From: Deltaproteobacteria bacterium
GTDB taxonomy: Bacteria; Desulfobacterota; Syntrophia; Syntrophales; UBA2210
NCBI GenBank assembly: GCA_019313695.1
Contig: JAFDAS010000007.1
Coordinates: forward strand, 1-48,003
Length of the DNA stretch: 48,003 bases
Direction: 5' to 3'
Below the pieces are notes generated by a model, which ran no database searches, was not told the DNA's origin, and saw only the letters and a list, made by a program, of their open reading frames with translations. The translations under genes were made by a program, and so were the position numbers. Shown piece by piece: positions 2,533 through 39,188 of this stretch (positions within the stretch are counted from its first letter, which is position 1; each line of letters opens with the position of its first letter).

Positions 2533-4401
2533 ATGAGAACGATTATACACAATAAAAACTTTTACCTGATGCTTTTTGCCGACGCGGTTGTTGTGGCGTT
2601 GGCTTATAGCCTGGGATATCTGGTTCGCTTTGAGGGGGATATTCCCTTGCAGAATCTGGCGCATTTTAAGGCCGCCCTGCCGTTTGTCGTCCCTCTCAAA
2701 CTGATCTGTTTTTTCATATTCGGTCTTTACAGGGGGATGTGGAGATACACAAGTCTCGCGGATATAAGGAAGGTCCTTAAAGCGGCGGCGCTTTCCTCCA
2801 TAATTATTATATTGACTATTCTGTTTTTATACCGCTTCCAGGGTTATGCCCGTTCGGTGTATGTTATCGATTTTGTGTTCACGTTTCTCCTTGTGGGGGG
2901 GATCCGGGTTTCCGTTCGACTGTTTTTTGCCGGTGAGTATCCGTTTTCCCGGGTATTTAAACGCGGCGGAGAATTTTCCGCGAGGACATTGCTGATCGTC
3001 GGCGCGGGAGACGCGGGTGAAAAGGTGCTCAGGGAAATTCTGGAACATCCGTCGATTAATGTAAAACCTGTGGGATTTCTTGATGATGATCCGGTCAAAA
3101 AGGGGAAGGCAATCCATGGAATTCCCGTCCTGGGAACGCTGGATGATATCGGCAGGATTAAAGAGAAGTTCGAGGAGATACTGATTACCATTCCTTCGGT
3201 CAGGGGTGAGGCGATGCGGCGTATCGTTTCTCTGTGTGAAGAGACGGGGAAGCCGTTTCGAACCGTGCCCGGAATCTGGGAGCTGATCGAGGGAAAGGTT
3301 TCGGTAAAATCGATTCGCAAGGTACGGCTGGAAGACCTGCTGGATCGAGAGGAGATTCATCTGGACGAAGAGGAGATTCGTCAATACATAAAAGACAAGC
3401 GGGTTATGATTACAGGGGCGGGGGGATCCATAGGGTCTGAGCTGGTAAGGCAGATGGGACGTTTTCAGCCACAGGCGCTGGCGCTTCTGGATTTCAGCGA
3501 GGAAAATCTTTTTCAGATAGAGGGAGAGTGCCGGCAGCGGTTCGGTTTTATCCCGGTATCGGGGTTTCTGGTTGATGTGAAAAACCGGGAATCCACGTGC
3601 AGGGCGTTTCGTGAATTTGGCCCTGACGTTGTCTTTCATGCCGCCGCTTATAAGCATGTTCCCATGCAGGAAATGCACCCGTGGGAGGCGGTGTTCAATA
3701 ATATCGCGGGCACACGAAACCTGGTCGAGGCGGCCCTGGAAAACCGGGTGGAGCGCTTTGTGCTTGTCTCGACGGATAAGGCCGTGCGGCCCGGCAATGT
3801 TATGGGCGCGACGAAACGCGTGGCTGAGATGCTTGTAGAATGCGTGAATGGCGGTGGCGTGACGCGTTTTATGGCTGTGCGCTTCGGGAATGTGCTCTGG
3901 AGCTCCGGGTCGGCGATTCCCCTGTTTCAGAAACAGATTTCCCGGGGCTTGCCTGTGACTATTACGCATCCGGAGATAACGCGTTATTTCATGAGCATTC
4001 CGGAGGCCGCACAGCTCATCCTTCAGGCGGGAGCTATGGGGAGGGGATGCGAGATATTCATCCTGGATATGGGCAAGCCCATGCGTATTGTCGATCTGGC
4101 CCGGGATCTGATACGTCTCAGCGGTCTTGAGCCGGACAAGGATATCCCCATTCAATTTATAGGGCTCAGGCCGGGGGAAAAGCTCTATGAAGAACTGATT
4201 ACGGAAGGGGAGGGGATCGTGGCCACTGATCATGAGAAAATCCTCGTCCTGTGTGGTAACGCGCACAATCGTGACGCCCTCAATGCACAGATCGACGAAC
4301 TCCTCGCAGTCGCGGCCACCTACGATGCCGCCGCCATAAGAGAAAAACTCCTTGAAATCGTACCGGAATACACACCAGGAGGGTCACATCTTAATTATTA
4401 A
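2533..4401 (+). CDS. membrane-bound nucleoside-diphosphate-sugar 4,6-dehydratase/epimerase (WbpM/CapD/FlaA1 family)
   Basis: A 622-residue enzyme of the WbpM type, which converts UDP-GlcNAc-like sugars to 4-keto-6-deoxy intermediates for surface polysaccharide. The N-terminal 120 residues hold about four membrane helices. A first Rossmann domain starts with VGAGDAGEKVL near 156. The catalytic short-chain dehydrogenase domain starts with TGAGGSIGSELV near 294. The active-site region is STDKAVRPGNVMGATKR near 412-428, where the usual Tyr of the YxxxK motif is Met, as is normal in this membrane-bound subfamily. The last residues (GSHLNY) and the stop codon are encoded by a family-A repeat that begins at 4379, so the native C-terminus has been replaced. 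No glycan-synthesis neighbours are seen. The substrate is not certain. Confidence 0.9.
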   Translation: MRTIIHNKNFYLMLFADAVVVALAYSLGYLVRFEGDIPLQNLAHFKAALPFVVPLKLICFFIFGLYRGMWRYTSLADIRKVLKAAALSSIIIILTILFLYRFQGYARSVYVIDFVFTFLLVGGIRVSVRLFFAGEYPFSRVFKRGGEFSARTLLIVGAGDAGEKVLREILEHPSINVKPVGFLDDDPVKKGKAIHGIPVLGTLDDIGRIKEKFEEILITIPSVRGEAMRRIVSLCEETGKPFRTVPGIWELIEGKVSVKSIRKVRLEDLLDREEIHLDEEEIRQYIKDKRVMITGAGGSIGSELVRQMGRFQPQALALLDFSEENLFQIEGECRQRFGFIPVSGFLVDVKNRESTCRAFREFGPDVVFHAAAYKHVPMQEMHPWEAVFNNIAGTRNLVEAALENRVERFVLVSTDKAVRPGNVMGATKRVAEMLVECVNGGGVTRFMAVRFGNVLWSSGSAIPLFQKQISRGLPVTITHPEITRYFMSIPEAAQLILQAGAMGRGCEIFILDMGKPMRIVDLARDLIRLSGLEPDKDIPIQFIGLRPGEKLYEELITEGEGIVATDHEKILVLCGNAHNRDALNAQIDELLAVAATYDAAAIREKLLEIVPEYTPGGSHLNY

Positions 4402-4591: not shown

Positions 4592-7264
4592 ATGAATGAG
4601 AAACCTACATTGTTCCTCATAGATGGAACGAATTATATCTATCGCGCGTTTTACGCGATTCGCGGGCTTTCCAATTCCAGGGGATTTCCCACTAACGCGA
4701 TCTATGGTTTTACCAATATGCTCATGAAGCTGTGCCGCGACTGGGGGCCGGAGTATATCGCCGTTGTGTTCGACGCGAAAGGTCCCACGTTCAGGCATGA
4801 GGCGTATGATCAGTACAAGGCGAACCGCAGCGCGATGCCCGATGAACTTCGCCCCCAGATCCCGCATATCAGGGATGTCGTCCGCGGTTTTTCCATGAAG
4901 GTCATCGAAGAGCAGGGGGTAGAGGCGGATGATATTATCGGCACCCTGGCGAAGAGATACGGGCAGGCGGGGATGAAGGTGGTCATCGCCTCCGGTGATA
5001 AGGATCTGATGCAGCTTGTGTCGGATAATGTCCTGATGGTGGATACCATGAAGGACATATCCTACGATGTGGAGGGTGTCCGGAACCGTTTCGGCGTTGG
5101 TCCCGACAGGGTGATCGATATACTGGGTCTCGCGGGGGACACATCGGATAATATCCCCGGTGTCCCCGGTGTGGGTGAAAAAACCGCGCTCAAACTGGTG
5201 AACCAGTTCGGCTCTCTCGAAGGTGTCCTGGAAAATGCCGGAGAGGTCAAGGGCAGGGGACTGAGTGAAAAACTGAAGGAGTTTGCCGATCAGGCCCGCA
5301 TGAGCAGGGATCTGGCCACTATCAGAACGGATGTCCCGGTGGATTTCGATCTGGAGGATCTGCGTTTCAGGGAACCCGATGTGGAGGCTCTGAAGGAGAT
5401 CTTCCGGGAGTTCGAATTTCCCGCCCTCATCTCGAAACTGGGGCTAAAGGAGGAGCGGGAGGAGACGGATTATCGCCTGATTATCGATGAAACGGAATTC
5501 GATAGTCTGCTAGGTGAACTTCGACAGTCCGATGGGTTTTCCTTCGATCTGGAATTGACTTCAGATGAGGCGATGAGGTCAGAGATCGTTGGAATAGCGG
5601 TCTGCAGCGGCGCGAAGAAGGCCTGCTATATACCCCTGTCTCACACGTGTGAGGAGGCGCAGGAACAGCTTGCCGCGGATATGGCGCTGGGACGGCTGGC
5701 CCCGCTCTTTTCCGATGACAGCCTGAAGAAATACGGGCATGATCTCAAGACGGCGTCTGTTGTCCTCTCGCGGATGGGGATCGCGCTGAATGGGCACGGA
5801 TGCGATGTCATGGTGGCATCTTATGTCCTTAATCCCTCCCTGCGCGGGTATGGTCTGCCGGATGTGGCGCAGGATCACCTCGGTCGCGGTATTGCTTCCC
5901 TCAAAGACCTGACGGGGAGTGGCGCGAAGACGATTCCTTTTCAGGCCGTGCCTCTGGAAGATGCCGCGGATTACGCGTGCCGCAGGGCGGATTTTATATT
6001 CAGACTCTCGCCCCTGCTGGATGAGAAGATTGAGGAGGCGGGTCTGAGTGATCTTTTCCATGGGGTGGAAATGCCCCTTGTCGGGGTGCTTGCCTCGATG
6101 GAAAAGAAGGGAGTTCTTCTTGATTGTGAGCTTCTGGGTGAAATATCACGCGGGCTTGGAGAACGGCTCGGCGTCTCCGAGGAGAAGATATACGGTCTGG
6201 CGGAGGAGGAGTTCAATATAAATTCCCCGAAACAGTTGCAGGCGATACTCTTCGACAGGCTCGGCCTTCCCCGGGGCAGGAAGACGAAGGCGGGCTACTC
6301 GACGGATGTGGACGTATTGACGAACCTCGCGAGATCCTATGAGCTTCCGGCGGAGATACTTGAGTACCGCGGCATGGCAAAGCTCAAATCGACCTATGTC
6401 GATGCCCTGCCCGCGCTTGTCAATCCGGAGACGGGGAGGGTGCACACATCGTATAATCAGACTGTGACGGCGACGGGAAGGCTCTCGAGCAGCAATCCCA
6501 ATCTCCAGAACATACCGATAAGGACGGCCGAGGGGAAGAGGATACGCCAGGCCTTCATCGCGCCTGAAGGATGCGAAATCGTGTCGGCCGACTATTCTCA
6601 GATAGAGCTTCGTATCCTGGCGCATCTCTCCGGGGACAAGCTGCTTATAGAGGCGTTCGAATCCGGCGAAGATGTGCACGCAAAGACGGCCTCCGACATA
6701 TTCGGAGTGTTTCCCGGGATGGTCAGCGAGGAGATGCGCAGGCAGGCAAAGGTGATAAACTTCGGCGTCATTTATGGGATGAGCCCCTTCGGTCTTGCCA
6801 GAGAGCTGGGGATAAGCCAGAAGCGCGCGAAAGATTACATAGATGAATATTTCTCCAGATTTTCCGGCGTTCGCGGGTTCATAGAAGAGACGCTGGTAAA
6901 GGCCGGAGAGAGGGGATTCGTCACTACGCTCCTGAACCGCCGGCGATATATACCGGAGATCAAAAGTGGAAATGTCCAGGTCCGCCAGTTCGCGGAAAGG
7001 ACGGCCATCAACACCCCCATACAGGGGACGGCGGCCGATCTGATCAAGGTGGCGATGCTGAATATCGCGGGCGGGATCAGGGAAAAGAGACTGTCCGCGT
7101 CTATGATTATGCAGGTACACGATGAACTTGTTTTCGAAGTTCCGGCGTGGGAGAAGGAAGAGGTTATGAACCTTGTCAGGCGGGAGATGGAAAAAGTGAT
7201 AACCCTGAAAGTGCCGCTGAAGGTGGAGATCGCCTCCGGTAGAAACTGGGATGAGGCGCATTAA
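4592..7264 (+). CDS. polA: DNA polymerase I
   Basis: An 890-residue family A polymerase for Okazaki-fragment processing and repair. The 5' nuclease domain (1-290) shows FLIDGTNYIYRAFY, GVEADDIIGTLA, SGDKDLMQL and GDTSDNIPGVPGVGEKTA. The polymerase domain (about 480-890) has motif A SADYSQIELR near 664, motif B RRQAKVINFGVIYG near 716 and motif C MQVHDELVFE near 840. The central 3'-5' exonuclease domain keeps the DxE (FDLELT near 318), but the later acidic residues appear lost. The equivalent of E. coli Asp424 falls in HDLKTAS (Ala), and that of Asp501 in YACRRAD (Arg). Proofreading is therefore probably absent, as in several other bacterial PolI enzymes. The ATG follows a repeat and lacks a clear Shine-Dalgarno. 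The gene is bracketed by inverted 115-bp repeats. Confidence 0.97.
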   Translation: MNEKPTLFLIDGTNYIYRAFYAIRGLSNSRGFPTNAIYGFTNMLMKLCRDWGPEYIAVVFDAKGPTFRHEAYDQYKANRSAMPDELRPQIPHIRDVVRGFSMKVIEEQGVEADDIIGTLAKRYGQAGMKVVIASGDKDLMQLVSDNVLMVDTMKDISYDVEGVRNRFGVGPDRVIDILGLAGDTSDNIPGVPGVGEKTALKLVNQFGSLEGVLENAGEVKGRGLSEKLKEFADQARMSRDLATIRTDVPVDFDLEDLRFREPDVEALKEIFREFEFPALISKLGLKEEREETDYRLIIDETEFDSLLGELRQSDGFSFDLELTSDEAMRSEIVGIAVCSGAKKACYIPLSHTCEEAQEQLAADMALGRLAPLFSDDSLKKYGHDLKTASVVLSRMGIALNGHGCDVMVASYVLNPSLRGYGLPDVAQDHLGRGIASLKDLTGSGAKTIPFQAVPLEDAADYACRRADFIFRLSPLLDEKIEEAGLSDLFHGVEMPLVGVLASMEKKGVLLDCELLGEISRGLGERLGVSEEKIYGLAEEEFNINSPKQLQAILFDRLGLPRGRKTKAGYSTDVDVLTNLARSYELPAEILEYRGMAKLKSTYVDALPALVNPETGRVHTSYNQTVTATGRLSSSNPNLQNIPIRTAEGKRIRQAFIAPEGCEIVSADYSQIELRILAHLSGDKLLIEAFESGEDVHAKTASDIFGVFPGMVSEEMRRQAKVINFGVIYGMSPFGLARELGISQKRAKDYIDEYFSRFSGVRGFIEETLVKAGERGFVTTLLNRRRYIPEIKSGNVQVRQFAERTAINTPIQGTAADLIKVAMLNIAGGIREKRLSASMIMQVHDELVFEVPAWEKEEVMNLVRREMEKVITLKVPLKVEIASGRNWDEAH

Positions 7265-33310: not shown

Positions 33311-33391
33311 TCCTCGACAATCGCTGCGGATTTCATTCACTGGCTGCTCGGCGCGAAGCGCCTCACAACCAGCGAATGCAGCGCGTTAGGC
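33311..33391 (+). other. integron attC-like site 0 (5' border of the cassette array)
   Basis: It ends with the core GTTAGGC (33385-33391) after CCAGCGAATGCAGCGC, which pairs imperfectly with CGCTGCGGATTTCATTCACTGG on its left side. The left half is almost the same as that of the truncated site at 38030. The expected left core (RYYYAAC) is degenerate here (CCTCGAC). This is the 5' edge of the recognisable array. Confidence 0.6.
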
Positions 33392-33455: not shown

Positions 33456-34382
33456 ATGCTGAGCTATGTCATTATTTTAGTTGCCCTTGTCGGTTTGACC
33501 ATACATAGGTACCTGAATTCATTTAGGGAGAACAGACTACTGCCATATCCAATAGGCTTTAATGTGTTCACCATATTCTTCGTCTTGTTTTACCTTGCCA
33601 GCTTTATATGGATGTTCGGAATAGTGGCAGGAATCATTATATCGGCATTGTGTTTCTTTCAACTAATACATTCTGCGTTGCTTTGGATATTCGCTTTGCC
33701 TTGGCTTGTCAAGATGAACAAGAACGAAGAAATGCCTGAAGTAAACAGGCTCGTCTACTCAAGCTTTGCATTCATCGTGGGCGTACTTGGAATTATTACG
33801 ATTATCAACTTCTTTGTGTCTTCTTATAGAGGCATGTGGGAAGGAATTGAGGACAACATATGGCTGATCGTAATCACCTTTGTGGCTGTAATGTTGATTG
33901 GAAATCTCGCTAGAAGCATTGTCTTTAGAAAGATACAAAAGCTATATAATAATCCGGAACCAGCAGAATCCTCAAATCCTAACGTTCCTGATGAGATAAA
34001 AGAAACCTATAGGCTTCTTGATAAGGTTGCTGATGAGCTGAAGGGCGTAGATGAATTCTTGCTTCAAGAGATAATTAAGGAGGCTATACAATCGCTAACA
34101 ATAGATCAGGCCCAAATGAACGACTATGTAAAAGAAATAAGAGAAAATAAACGGAGTCCACAAGAATGGGTCTTTACATATATAATCAATGATGCTGCTG
34201 ATAAAATGGAAAGCGGTAAATATCATGTTTATAGAGGAGTGTTAGATAGTACAGGAGAAGCATATAAAGCGATTTTCGAACGAGGAATAAGAGCTATGAT
34301 CGGAATAGGTGCATATTCAAAAGAATGGGCAGATCAACATATCCGCGAGCCGGTCTATTCAAATATTAAGAAAGTAGGCTGA
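33456..34382 (+). CDS. cassette 1 protein: multi-spanning membrane protein of unknown function
   Basis: 308 residues. Several membrane helices lie in 1-155 (for example YVIILVALVGLTI, FTIFFVLFYLASFIWMFGIV, VGVLGIITIINFFV, IWLIVITFVAVMLIGNLA), followed by a soluble, charged, helical C-terminal half (about 165-308). No family is recognised. GAAGGAGAAAGTAACT precedes ATG 33456. The gene fills a cassette running from the core TTAGGCG (33386) to the attC at 34394-34509. The base composition is visibly richer in A+T than the flanking recA and alaS genes, fitting acquisition. Confidence 0.72.
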   Translation: MLSYVIILVALVGLTIHRYLNSFRENRLLPYPIGFNVFTIFFVLFYLASFIWMFGIVAGIIISALCFFQLIHSALLWIFALPWLVKMNKNEEMPEVNRLVYSSFAFIVGVLGIITIINFFVSSYRGMWEGIEDNIWLIVITFVAVMLIGNLARSIVFRKIQKLYNNPEPAESSNPNVPDEIKETYRLLDKVADELKGVDEFLLQEIIKEAIQSLTIDQAQMNDYVKEIRENKRSPQEWVFTYIINDAADKMESGKYHVYRGVLDSTGEAYKAIFERGIRAMIGIGAYSKEWADQHIREPVYSNIKKVG

Positions 34383-34393
34383 TGATAAGAAAC

Positions 34394-34509
34394 GCCTAAC
34401 ACATAGCGCTGGAGTTGACCACGTAGGGGAAAGCGCGATCAGCTTGGCCTCGTTGAACAAGTAGGCAGGGCTATTTCAATCAGCGCGGCAAATCAGCTTA
34501 TCGTTATGT
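34394..34509 (+). other. integron attC site 1
   Basis: It opens with GCCTAAC (34394-34400) and closes with GTTATGT (34503-34509). The inner arms TAGCGCTG and CAGCGCGG are partly complementary. AACGCCTAAC is the reverse complement of the cassette's own start GTTAGGCGTT at 33385, the pairing expected when a cassette has inserted from a circle. Length 116 bp, within the usual attC range. Confidence 0.8.
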
Positions 34510-34537: not shown

Positions 34538-34993
34538 ATGTTTGGTGCAAAAAGTTTAGCCAGAAAAATGATTCAAGGCGTGGATGTTGTGAAATTGGTC
34601 TTATATAAAATCCTTACAGATGAATTTTCAGAAAAATATCAGAATAATGGAGAAGAATTTTACAAAACTCTCGCTGCTGCCTTAATAAATGAAATATTTT
34701 GCTGTCATAATGAAATGAGTCGTTCGGTGTTTGATGAAAATAAAAATACAGTTATTGACGAAATCAAGAATTTAGGCACAAATCATCCCGAACTAAAACG
34801 ACCCATCACTGATGCTTTAAGAGCTTCCGTTCAAGCCAACTTTATGTTATCAGGGAAAATGCAAGATAATTTCGAAGAAGTATTCAATAATGCAATTGAA
34901 AGAGACATTTTTATAAAAGGTGGTGAAAAGCCTGAACCTAAAACTTTTTTAGAGATGACCGAAAAACTTATTCAGAAATATAATATAAAATAA
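34538..34993 (+). CDS. cassette 2 protein of unknown function
   Basis: 151 residues, soluble, helical, A+T-rich. Nothing in it is familiar to me. Segments such as LARKMIQGVDVVKLVLYKIL and ALRASVQANFMLSGKMQDNF suggest a compact helical fold. AAAAAAGGGGTAATAC precedes ATG 34538. Only about 30 bases separate the cassette start (34504) from the ORF, and the stop lies next to its attC, which is the compact arrangement usual for cassettes. Confidence 0.7.
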   Translation: MFGAKSLARKMIQGVDVVKLVLYKILTDEFSEKYQNNGEEFYKTLAAALINEIFCCHNEMSRSVFDENKNTVIDEIKNLGTNHPELKRPITDALRASVQANFMLSGKMQDNFEEVFNNAIERDIFIKGGEKPEPKTFLEMTEKLIQKYNIK

Positions 34994-34995
34994 CC

Positions 34996-35063
34996 ACATA
35001 ACAACTCAATTGAGCGGATTTTTCCGCAGCTTTGCTGCTCCCCAAACCGCTCATTTCGGGCGT
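34996..35063 (+). other. integron attC site 2, left part (split by an intron; right end at 37054)
   Basis: It opens with ACATAAC (34996-35002). CCACATAAC is complementary to the cassette start GTTATGTGG (34503). Inner arms TTGAGCGG and CCGCTCA pair well. The right core is cut: bases up to GCGT (35063) lie before the intron, and TAGCAAT (37054 on) after it. Removing the intron restores GCGTTAGCAAT, a normal GTTRRRY core. Confidence 0.8.
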
Positions 35064-37053
35064 GTGTGCCGGGCATGGCACAGAACTAGCGGGGTGAAAG
35101 TCCCCGTGCCAGGTGTTCGCAGAGCCGAAGGCTAGGAGAAGGGCAAGGGCGCCATCGTGAGGTGAGGTCTGGAGGAAGCCCAATCCAAAAGCGTGGGGCG
35201 ACGAACAGGAACCGGATCTGAGGTGTGGTACGTCCGGGGCGAGCGGGCACGTGACCGCAAAGCCCTCCATCTGCGATTGGGGCGTGCTTTATAAATCCGG
35301 CGTTTACGCGCGGCAAGCTCTGTGTCTTACCCCGGGAGGCCTGTACGGTGTCGGTATGGCAGATATGGTATGCGACTATTAAGTCCACGTGTGGGGAAAC
35401 CCTTGAAACAGGTATGTCGAAACCTAAGTCGCCATGCACAGACTGAGAGTGGAGCAATCCACTCTGACCGCCGTGCAGGAGTCAGCAGAGGGCATAGTAG
35501 GAGGACCGAGACAGACATTATTCTTCTGAAGTATGGACGAACTAGGAACCCGCCCTGCAATCGAAAGAGCAGGAGCCGGAAACTCTCAGCCTAAACGGAA
35601 GAAAGATTTAATGTTATGCCGCCTCTGAAGGCCCGAACGGTTCCCTGAGAAGGGATTAAATGATAGGACTGCAGGACGAGGGACGAGTGAACAATAGACC
35701 GGCAAAACAATTGTGGTTGCCTTTTGAGATAAAGGGCGGAGCTTATGGAAGAGGTGGTTGATCGGGATAACCTGTTGACTGCCCTTCGCAACGTCAAACG
35801 GAACGGAGGTGCTCCTGGAGTAGACGGTATGACGGTAAAGGAATTGCCGGAATACCTGAAAAGGCAGTGGCCGAAGATCCGCAGGCAACTTATCAGTGGG
35901 ACATATGTTCCGCTGCCAGTCAGGCGGGTAGAAATACCCAAACCCGGAGGAGGAATACGCCAACTCGGTATTCCATCCGTGCTGGATCGATTTGTCCAGC
36001 AAGCATTAATGCAAGTACTGCAGCGAGAGTGGGACGCAACCTTTTCAGAGTCAAGCTATGGTTTTAGACCGAAAAGGAGTGCCCATCAAGCCATAAAACA
36101 ATCCCAAAAGTATCTCAAAGAGGGATACAGATGGGTAGTTGACATGGATCTTGAGAAGTTTTTCGACCGAGTAAATCACGACAAGCTGATGAGCGAGGTA
36201 CGGAAGCGAGTTTCAGACAGGCGAGTGAATACACTGATTCTGCGATTTTTACGATCCGGAGTGGAGCACGAAGGGGAGCTTCTTATAATGGAGATGGGAA
36301 CTCCACAAGGAGGGCCGCTGTCGCCGTTACTGGCCAACCTGCTGCTCGACACCCTGGATCGGGAACTGGAACGTAGAGGGCATCGATTTGTGCGTTATGC
36401 GGATGACTGTAATATATACGTTAAAAGCAGACGTGCAGGTTCGAGAGTTCTTAAAAGTATCAGTCAATTTCTGGATCGACATTTGAAGCTGTCAGTCAAT
36501 GAAGCGAAAAGTGCCGTGGGGAGGCCATGGGAACGTCAGTTTCTGGGTTTTACCCTCAGTTCTCGACTGAACAGACGAATCAGTTCTAAATCGATTAAAC
36601 GTTTTAAGAACAGGATTAGGGAAATCACCTGTCGGGTTCGTGGAAGACGCATCGAAGTAATAGTGAAGGAGCTTCGCCGGTTCATAATAGGCTGGCAGGC
36701 ATATTTTGACATTACAGAGGTGCGTTACGTTCTGAAAGAACTGGACTCCTGGGTTAGGCGACGTCTTCGGTGCTATCTTTGGAAGCAATGGGGACGTCGT
36801 GGCTACCGGGAGTTGAGGAAGCTGGGAGTGAGTAGAGATCTTGCTTGGAATACAGCGAAATCTGCCCATGGTCCATGGAGGCTGAGCCGCAGTCCGGGAT
36901 TGGCATTCGCATTGACGACAAAGTATTTTGCAAGTCTGGGGTTGCCGAGGCTGTTTATTAAACCGACTTAATCAACCGAACCGCCGTGGTACGTGATCCG
37001 TATGCCCGGTGGTGTGGGAGGAGGGGAGTCGCGAGGCTCCCCCCTATCCCGAT
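35064..37053 (+). mobile_element. group IIC intron inserted in an integron attC core
   Basis: About 1990 bp. It begins GTGTGCCGGGCATGGCAC, a typical 5' end of bacterial class C group II introns. About 680 bases of structured RNA come before the encoded reverse transcriptase. A domain V-like segment follows the gene (ACCGCCGTGGTACGTGATCC, then GTATGCCCGGTGGTGTGG, about 36979-37015), then a domain VI-like hairpin (GAGGGGAGTC/GAGGCTCCCCCC) and the end CCCGAT. The boundaries were chosen because they restore a perfect attC core. The orientation is the same as that of the cassettes. Confidence 0.87.
35745..36971 (+). CDS. ltrA: group II intron reverse transcriptase/maturase (class C type)
   Basis: 408 residues. 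RT domains run from GAPGVDGMTVKELPEYLK near 24 through RRVEIPKPGGGIRQLGIPSV, SESSYGFRPKRSAHQAIKQS, VVDMDLEKFFDRVNHDKL and GTPQGGPLSPLLANLLLD to the catalytic YADD in RFVRYADDCNIYVKS near 222. Then comes the thumb/maturase (X) domain (RPWERQFLGFTLSSRLN, GWQAYFDITEVRYVLKELDS, RRRLRCYLWKQWGRRGYREL). No HNH endonuclease domain follows, as expected for class C. It resembles the Geobacillus GsI-IIC enzyme as I remember it. GGGCGGAGCTT lies before ATG 35745. It appears intact and is probably active in splicing. Confidence 0.95.
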   Translation: MEEVVDRDNLLTALRNVKRNGGAPGVDGMTVKELPEYLKRQWPKIRRQLISGTYVPLPVRRVEIPKPGGGIRQLGIPSVLDRFVQQALMQVLQREWDATFSESSYGFRPKRSAHQAIKQSQKYLKEGYRWVVDMDLEKFFDRVNHDKLMSEVRKRVSDRRVNTLILRFLRSGVEHEGELLIMEMGTPQGGPLSPLLANLLLDTLDRELERRGHRFVRYADDCNIYVKSRRAGSRVLKSISQFLDRHLKLSVNEAKSAVGRPWERQFLGFTLSSRLNRRISSKSIKRFKNRIREITCRVRGRRIEVIVKELRRFIIGWQAYFDITEVRYVLKELDSWVRRRLRCYLWKQWGRRGYRELRKLGVSRDLAWNTAKSAHGPWRLSRSPGLAFALTTKYFASLGLPRLFIKPT

Positions 37054-37065
37054 TAGCAATTAAAT

Positions 37066-38028
37066 ATGAGTATTCCGAGAAAACATCACTATCTGCCACA
37101 GTTTTATTTGGAAGGTTTTAAAATATTGCCTCAAAAGGGCAAAAAACCTCATATCTGGCAAATTGAAAAAGTTGGGGAACAGAAGTACTATAACCCAGCG
37201 ATAACAGATACAGGGTGTATTCGTGATTATCACTCTCTTGACCATGAACTGGAGCCTGACCATAAAACAATCGAGTCCGTTCTTTCAACTATTGAAGCAA
37301 AGCAAGCTGAATTAGTTCAATCAATTATTAACTCAAAGGACATGAATCATTCTCAAATAGCAGAACTTGCGGGATTAATTTCTCTAATGAGATATCGAAT
37401 CCCTGCTTTTGCATCGTATATTGAAACCAGTCACAAAAAAATAGTTCTCGACAGCTTCAAGATCATGTATCAAACTGGAAAATTTCCCTCTCCTCCTAAG
37501 ATGATTCGGCAAATGTTTGAATCTAAAGGAATAGACGAAACTCTCAACATTAAAATTTCGAATTGGGAAATTGTTGAAAAAATATTAGAAGTTGGTTTGT
37601 CATCTGAAAGTATCAGTATGCTGTTACAGCTTAACTATCAAATTTATAGCACAAAGGAGCCGGATATATTTATTACTTCCGATAATCCGGTTGCGTTATT
37701 TCATCCAAATTATGAAGACTTAAAACCATATGGGATTGGTTTGGCAATCAAAGGAGTAGAACTCACATTTCCTCTTAGCTCCAATACATTGGTTGTTGCT
37801 GGACATCATCTTAAGCCAGGCTCCTATTTTGCCAACCATAATCAAGTGAATGAATTCAACCGAAGAACAATAATAATGGCTGAAAACTATATATTCTCAA
37901 ATAAAATTAGTACTGAGTTAAAAAAACATATAAACGATTTAAAAGATAATTTTGCTGGTTTCACTTTTGATAATCTATACTATGGTAAAGGTAGTGTATA
38001 CGTATCAAGGTTTATACCAGTACAATGA
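37066..38028 (+). CDS. cassette 3 protein, DUF4238 family
   Basis: 320 residues. The N-terminal KHHYLPQFYLEGF (residues 6-18) and the central DIFITSDNPVALF (about 203-215) are the marks of DUF4238, a widespread accessory-gene family of unknown biochemical role. No membrane segment is seen. A+T-rich. The start ATG 37066 is only 12 bases from the cassette start (TTAGCAAT, 37054) and there is no strong Shine-Dalgarno, so expression may depend on transcription from upstream. The gene ends right at its attC. Confidence 0.8.
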   Translation: MSIPRKHHYLPQFYLEGFKILPQKGKKPHIWQIEKVGEQKYYNPAITDTGCIRDYHSLDHELEPDHKTIESVLSTIEAKQAELVQSIINSKDMNHSQIAELAGLISLMRYRIPAFASYIETSHKKIVLDSFKIMYQTGKFPSPPKMIRQMFESKGIDETLNIKISNWEIVEKILEVGLSSESISMLLQLNYQIYSTKEPDIFITSDNPVALFHPNYEDLKPYGIGLAIKGVELTFPLSSNTLVVAGHHLKPGSYFANHNQVNEFNRRTIIMAENYIFSNKISTELKKHINDLKDNFAGFTFDNLYYGKGSVYVSRFIPVQ

Positions 38029-38029
38029 T

Positions 38030-38079
38030 TGCTAACAACTCGCTACGGATTTCATCCACTGGCTGCTCGGCGCGAAGGA
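38030..38079 (+). other. integron attC site 3, truncated
   Basis: TTGCTAAC (38029-38036) is the complement of the cassette start GTTAGCAA. It is followed by the left half CGCTACGGATTTCATCCACT and GGCTGCTCGGCGCGAAG, almost identical to the left half of attC 0. The right half is missing; GGAGAGGAAAAAGGAGAGG simple repeats take over. The array ends here. Confidence 0.7.
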
Positions 38080-38307: not shown

Positions 38308-38560
38308 TTGAAAAATGCCATCGGCCTGAGACACACAGTGGACTCCTATATAATCGATGTTCGAGCAGTAACCCGGATGGGACTTGACATAAAGATCTTT
38401 CGCATGAATCGCCTTGGCATCTCTCAGGACGGGATTGCAAAGAGATCAGGGCAAACGAGAGATATTATCAGATTGAAAAGGGCGACAACGCCAAAATCGC
38501 CATGAAAACCATAATCGACCGGGGCATTGAAAGCTTAAGAGTTATATCACTACAAAAAGA
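38308..38560 (+). pseudogene. decayed helix-turn-helix regulator fragment
   Basis: One frame gives IFRMNRLGISQDGIAKRSGQ followed by TRD, which looks like the first helices of an XRE-type helix-turn-helix. The neighbouring frame then continues QIEKGDNAKIAMKTIIDRGI, which looks like the rest of such a domain, so a frameshift near 38465 is likely. No proper start is seen. It may have been the regulator of the toxin-antitoxin genes that follow, or unrelated debris. Confidence 0.4.
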
Positions 38561-38570
38561 GAGGTGTATT

Positions 38571-38854
38571 ATGTTCAAACTCACGGATTATATTCCCAGA
38601 GCGGAGTTGGAAACATTCTGCCGGAGAAATCATATAACCAAAATGTCTCTTTTCGGTTCCGCCCTGCGTGATGAATTAAAGCCGGGCAGTGATATTGACA
38701 TTCTTGTGGAGTTTGACAAAAACCATATGCCGGAATGGAAATCGAGCTGGCGGAGATGTTCGGCAGAAAAGTCGATCTGCGCACACCTGCTGAACTCAGC
38801 CGGTATTTCAGAGATGATGTCATGGAAAAAGCGAAGGTGGAATATGCAATCTGA
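38571..38854 (+). pseudogene. mntA: MntA-like nucleotidyltransferase antitoxin, frameshifted
   Basis: From ATG 38571 (binding site GAGAGG) the protein reads MFKLTDYIPRAELETFCRRN, then SLFGSALRDELKPGSDIDIL with the nucleotidyltransferase motif GSx10-14(S)DID, as in minimal NTases. After VEFDKNHMP (near 38735) the sense switches to another frame: [39 protein letters not shown] and TGA at 38852-38854. A small deletion between the two parts, probably of a few codons plus a frameshift, explains this. In MntA/HepT pairs this enzyme AMPylates and silences the toxin. As it stands the first part runs in frame into the HepT gene. Confidence 0.75.
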
Positions 38855-39188
38855 AGATAAAATCCGCCTGCTGCATATTCTTGATGAAGCTGCTGAAGCC
38901 TGTCATTACGTAGAAGGTATTACGTTTGATGAATTTGTCAAAGAGGGTAAGACCGTTCGGGCTGTTATTCGATGCATAGAAGTTATCGGCGAAGCGACCT
39001 CAAAAATATCCATGGAATTTCGCAAAGAACATCCGGATGTCCCCTGGCAAAAAATAATCGGAATGCGTAATCGCTTGATACATGTTTATTTTGATATTGA
39101 TTACAATATTATTTGGCAGACAGCTAAAGAAAACCTGCCGCCTTTAATTGAACAATTGCAATCAATTCTGCAAAACAGTGAGCAGTAA
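38844..39188 (+). CDS. hepT: HepT-like toxin (DUF86 ribonuclease-fold) of an MntA/HepT pair
   Basis: 114 residues from ATG 38844, overlapping the old mntA stop (ATGCAATCTGA), the usual coupling of this pair. The catalytic Rx4H motif with the following tyrosine is present as [12 protein letters not shown] near 82, and the helical DUF86 body is intact ([36 protein letters not shown]). Because mntA has lost its frame, the surviving frame joins its first 55 residues to the upstream linker and the entire HepT (one ORF from 38502 to 39188). Whether the toxin is made from its own ATG or only as a fusion cannot be told. Confidence 0.82.

Follow-up and report, generated by a model that had tools for sequence, protein, structure and literature searches.

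Integrons disseminate genes for resistance and adaptation, and introns inserted at the attC sites can lock cassettes in position. Among these are the classical IIC-attC introns (S.ma.I2 type), whose EBS1 is ACAA and whose site reads TTGT/T (PMC7923331). They occupy the R'' core on the bottom strand and run against the cassettes. For example, in the classical loci L108 and L109 the intron opposes the cassettes of a class 1 integron, with EBS1 ACAA and TTGT at the site. Other group IIC introns target terminators. Here we compare these systems with an intron found in a 48,003-nucleotide stretch of a deltaproteobacterial contig, hereafter the window.

Introns co-oriented with the cassettes have also been reported. 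A top-strand group IIC intron was described from Enterobacter cloacae by Rodriguez-Martinez, Nordmann and Poirel (2012, J Bacteriol 194:150, cited in PMC7923331), and a same-orientation intron was noted in Shewanella algae KC-Na-R1 (PMC9229058). According to the citing description, the E. cloacae intron belongs to group IIC, lies in the top strand of attC in cassette orientation, and is not a classical IIC-attC intron (PMC7923331), all of which it shares with the window intron. As that description has it, however, it is one clinical case, whereas the window intron is a member of an environmental lineage. The S. algae plasmid intron, which is 99.9% identical to the pR148 intron, belongs to the same clade as the window intron and is likewise co-oriented, at GCGT/TAG of the aadA1 attC on pKC-Na-R1. 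It differs in being plasmid-borne, within a class 1 integron, and the reverse transcriptase of this intron type (L112) is about 56% identical to that of the window. The first-pass annotation, made from the letters of the window, had set the intron apart from attC-targeting group IIC introns, which it described as lying opposite to the cassettes; these two reports precede it, and the window intron joins a kind already published as single cases. It had also allowed that a same-orientation group using the same site might be in print. Single cases are, but our literature search, of incomplete coverage, found no description of the lineage as a group. The novelty seems to lie in how far the lineage extends, in its having one origin, and in an explanation of its site through EBS1.

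The window intron occupies positions 35064-37053 on the + strand (1,990 bp), looks complete, and encodes a reverse transcriptase of 408 aa. Its 5′ end (GTGYGCCRGGCATGG) and 3′ end (CTATCCCGAT) are common to homologs with unrelated flanks, which sets the borders at 35064 and 37053, and its terminal bases, GTGTG...GAT, agree with the class C border GUGYG...RAY. Two Rfam matches exceed their gathering scores: RF02001 (119.7 bits), covering part of ribozyme domain I at 35151-35325, and RF01998 (37.8 bits), at 35444-35506. A match to RF00029 across domains V and VI (36979-37053) stops exactly at the 3′ splice site, and at 23.7 bits, below the gathering score of 40, we use it as support for the 3′ end only. 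The intron-encoded reverse transcriptase/maturase (35745-36971, + strand) has RVT_1 and GIIM domains, a YADD motif and no endonuclease domain, and its closest PDB structure is the GsI-IIC RT. Class C ribozyme domains and borders, a reverse transcriptase and maturase without endonuclease, and a short pairing of the 3-4 bp kind between EBS1 and IBS1 (ACGU with GCGT) downstream of a stem-loop (the attC stem) all place the intron in group IIC.

Joining the flanks gives GGGCGT^TAGCAAT, which puts the insertion inside R', at GT|T, between both T of GTT. A T at both 35063 and 37053 leaves a one-base ambiguity in the placement of the junction, which homologs with other flanking bases resolve to 35064/37053. 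The attC is split into a left part at 34996-35063, comprising R'' (ACATAAC, 34996-35002), the stem and the GT of R', and the remainder of R' (TAGCA) at 37054-37058. Its fold is only moderately better than those of shuffled sequences (z -2.2). The homolog ends and joined flanks bear out the first-pass annotation on the borders and on the insertion between the two T, and with the Rfam matches and + strand ORFs they uphold its central claim of a group IIC intron in the R' core of an attC, reading with the cassettes. Two of its details need correction. The restored right core, GTTAGCA, was called perfect and matches GTTRRRY at 5 of 7 positions. Further, the insertion was placed at the recombination point; the integrase crossover in attC is G|TT, and the intron junction lies one base after it.

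Cassette ORFs flank the intron on both sides, on the same + strand: one of 151 aa with no family match ahead of the split attC (34538-34993), and one with a DUF4238 domain 3′ of the intron (37066-38028). The preceding cassette ORF (33456-34382, + strand, 308 aa) also lacks a family match and is followed by a probable attC at 34394-34509 (GCCTAAC ... GTTATGT, + strand), recognised by motif only, its fold being no better than shuffles. A further attC right core, GTTAGGC, lies upstream at 33385-33391 (+ strand), and the R'' TGCTAAC of the last attC, apparently truncated downstream, is at 38030-38036 (+ strand). This short array is located after recA-recX, and a search for an integron integrase near it found none. 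The best IntI-like gene in the genome is on contig 52 (L178, G000:C52, about 420-1423) and is split by a frameshift. After the array, a single ORF at 38502-39188 combines nucleotidyltransferase (MntA-like) and HepT-like parts, resembling a fused type VII toxin-antitoxin pair.

These surroundings could fit a dead remnant, a copy of the right lineage that neither splices nor moves: the window intron is the sole full copy in its genome, its array has no nearby integrase, and the genome's best IntI-like gene is frameshifted. Against this, the reverse transcriptase frame is open and retains YADD and both domains, the match to domain I is good, and the ends are conserved. We consider a remnant unlikely and treat the intron as apparently intact.

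How the intron recognises its site can be read from EBS1, which we located via the RF02001 alignment. EBS1 is ACGU at 35249-35252, assigned from its loop position, its conservation in the clade and EBS1-IBS1 covariation in relatives. It pairs with IBS1, GCGT, the final bases of the 5′ exon (35060-35063), which is the pairing that had been suggested for the GGGCGT end. Nearly all aligned members of the window clade have EBS1 ACGU, which pairs with NCGT of the attC top strand, and 41 of the 42 distinct clade sites have CGT as IBS1. Among 29 introns with other sites, 22 are paired at each of the three positions closest to the splice site, compared with 4.8 on average and at most 13 in a shuffle control; the EBS1 pattern misread a few outgroup introns (e.g. 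L068, L077, L083), which weakens rather than inflates this count. The same approach was attempted for EBS3 and IBS3. IBS3, the first base of the 3′ exon (37054, from the homolog borders), is T in 33 of the 35 introns compared, and is so nearly invariant as to be uninformative.

The expectation that this intron uses another strand or a different mode of recognition is therefore borne out, with a top-strand site and IBS1 NCGT rather than TTGT. By Watson-Crick pairing, CGT occurs at the bottom-strand R'' end in only one of the 32 attC sites of this set, for which the R'' sequences were picked manually. Once G.T pairing is permitted, 19 of these 32 ends would be compatible with ACGU as well, so strand discrimination rests on Watson-Crick pairing together with the observed sites.

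Introns with NCGT/T sites form a single reverse-transcriptase clade (UFBoot 97 / SH-aLRT 85); this covers introns that have CGT (or CGC) at the end of the 5′ exon and a reverse transcriptase that could be placed. The tree was sampled by similarity to the window protein, and more distant attC-associated introns may be missing. Divergence within the clade is deep, yet EBS1 and IBS1 are fixed. The window reverse transcriptase falls outside the classical IIC-attC clade, as the placement proposed by the first-pass annotation reveals, and a joint clade of the two lineages is rejected (AU p = 0.002).

This phylogeny bears on whether the intron is a classical bottom-strand, R'' insertion that appears co-oriented through inversion of its attC or array. 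The two types do share group IIC membership, an attC core, GT/T and an upstream hairpin. However, the window clade has EBS1 ACGU, not ACAA, its reverse transcriptases are separate, the flanking ORFs share the intron's direction, and the same arrangement recurs in many relatives. EBS1 and the reverse transcriptase clade lead us to reject an inverted array, which is extremely improbable. The window intron has neither the bottom-strand R'' position, TTGT/T site and antisense direction of the classical type nor a reverse transcriptase in the IIC-attC clade; it has NCGT/T at R', EBS1 ACGU and a reverse transcriptase in the top-strand clade. The two lineages appear to have reached attC independently, one at each end of a near-palindrome and on different strands. 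We lean towards the view that attC targeting arose at least twice in IIC introns, ACAA leading to the bottom strand at R'' and ACGU to the top strand at R', such that a two-base difference in EBS1 picks the end and hence decides if cassette transcripts can be rid of the intron by splicing, with the second lineage undescribed as a group. A relative of the classical clade, L137 854 from a Dechloromonas MAG, has EBS1 ACAT at GGGT, with an attC-like fold ahead.

The surveyed sites also speak to the idea of a chance landing, in an attC hairpin, by a IIC intron of the general terminator type. Terminator-targeting introns share the ribozyme type, the reverse transcriptase and a hairpin ahead of the site, close relatives of the clade are located after terminators, and two clade members (L011 and L091) lie outside clear attC sites, with no recognisable attC, though the automatic fold test also counted L091. 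Terminator-targeting introns differ, however, in having various EBS1/IBS1 sequences, T-rich sites and few attC-like folds. A spanning attC-like stem-loop led by AAC lies upstream of 28 of 32 distinct clade sites and of 6 of 41 sites of other IIC introns, where 6.8 and 7.5, respectively (about 20%), would be expected from shuffled flanks. The recurrence at other attC sites for which the first-pass annotation had proposed a survey is thus present, and a repeated site, with EBS1 and IBS1 fixed across a deeply diverged clade, contradicts chance landing, which we judge very unlikely. Of 34 closest upstream ORFs, 30 have the orientation of the intron and 4 the opposite one; the direction of the downstream ORF is uninformative (15 against 12).

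It is highly probable, then, that the window holds an apparently intact group IIC intron whose lineage targets the R' core of attC on the top (cassette-coding) strand. The parts of this explanation drawn from sequence are the borders, the site, the orientation, the covarying EBS1-IBS1 pairing, the single clade, and recent multi-copy spread in Gamma proteobacterium HdN1.

The lineage is widely distributed. One scan of genome contigs yielded 80 loci, and further searches added members from the window's own phylum, from Gammaproteobacteria and from plasmids. By record title, genome hosts include Desulfobacteraceae, KSB1, Acidiferrobacterales, Dechloromonas, Nitrospira, an Omnitrophota MAG, HdN1 and an Enterobacterales MAG; plasmid hosts include Proteus, Aeromonas, Vibrio, E. 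coli, Klebsiella, Enterobacter and Shewanella. The clade spans several phyla as well as resistance plasmids, and its plasmid members run in the same direction as the annotated cassettes. Among 369 gammaproteobacterial genomes sampled, 30 matched the 5′-end pattern, and 14 of those (centre genome included) have a CGT-type site, some copies being partial. In HdN1, eight copies with 99.5-99.9% identity occupy different attC sites, which by their sequences would indicate recent movement of the lineage. In one of these (L135, at 1.744 Mb), the 5′ exon is an attC as in the other copies, and the 3′ exon (TTCAATCC) is without the TAG of R', possibly following a later rearrangement.

The following mechanism is our inference as regards recognition of the hairpin, entry into the top strand by reverse splicing, removal from transcripts in the host and loss of attC function. 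The intron RNA and its reverse transcriptase would recognise the stem-loop of attC instead of a terminator hairpin, and the EBS1 loop ACGU would pair with NCGT (IBS1) directly after the stem. Reverse splicing would then occur between both T of GTT, after which the reverse transcriptase would make a DNA copy of the intron. In the sense orientation, the intron could be spliced from cassette transcripts. The DNA copy disrupts R' and probably prevents the integrase from using the split attC; the cassettes on either side could therefore only move together. Splicing had been suggested as a way to unblock the attC, but because it acts on RNA, it would restore the attC sequence there and leave R' split in the DNA. 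The sense lineage could freeze cassettes without silencing those downstream, unlike the antisense type, since a sense intron can be spliced from their transcript. Together, the two lineages offer a natural comparison in which a four-base guide steers a IIC intron to either end of the same hairpin.

Some loci depart from the full-length, attC-inserted form. At L181 (G487:C71; compare also L154), two short introns of 377 and 376 bp (3875-4251 and 5022-5397) occupy two different attC sites at NCGT|TA. They lack a reverse transcriptase gene and the EBS1-bearing part of domain I, and both have an identical internal deletion. They may be non-autonomous copies, or the product of gene conversion of full-length copies. 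A third copy, partly deleted, lies at 355-1421 of the same locus. Lastly, the clade member at L011 (3380-5309) lies in sense within a protein-coding frame; its site is GCGT|TGT and is not an attC. Once its flanks are joined, the coding frame reads through, and splicing may matter for the host frame.
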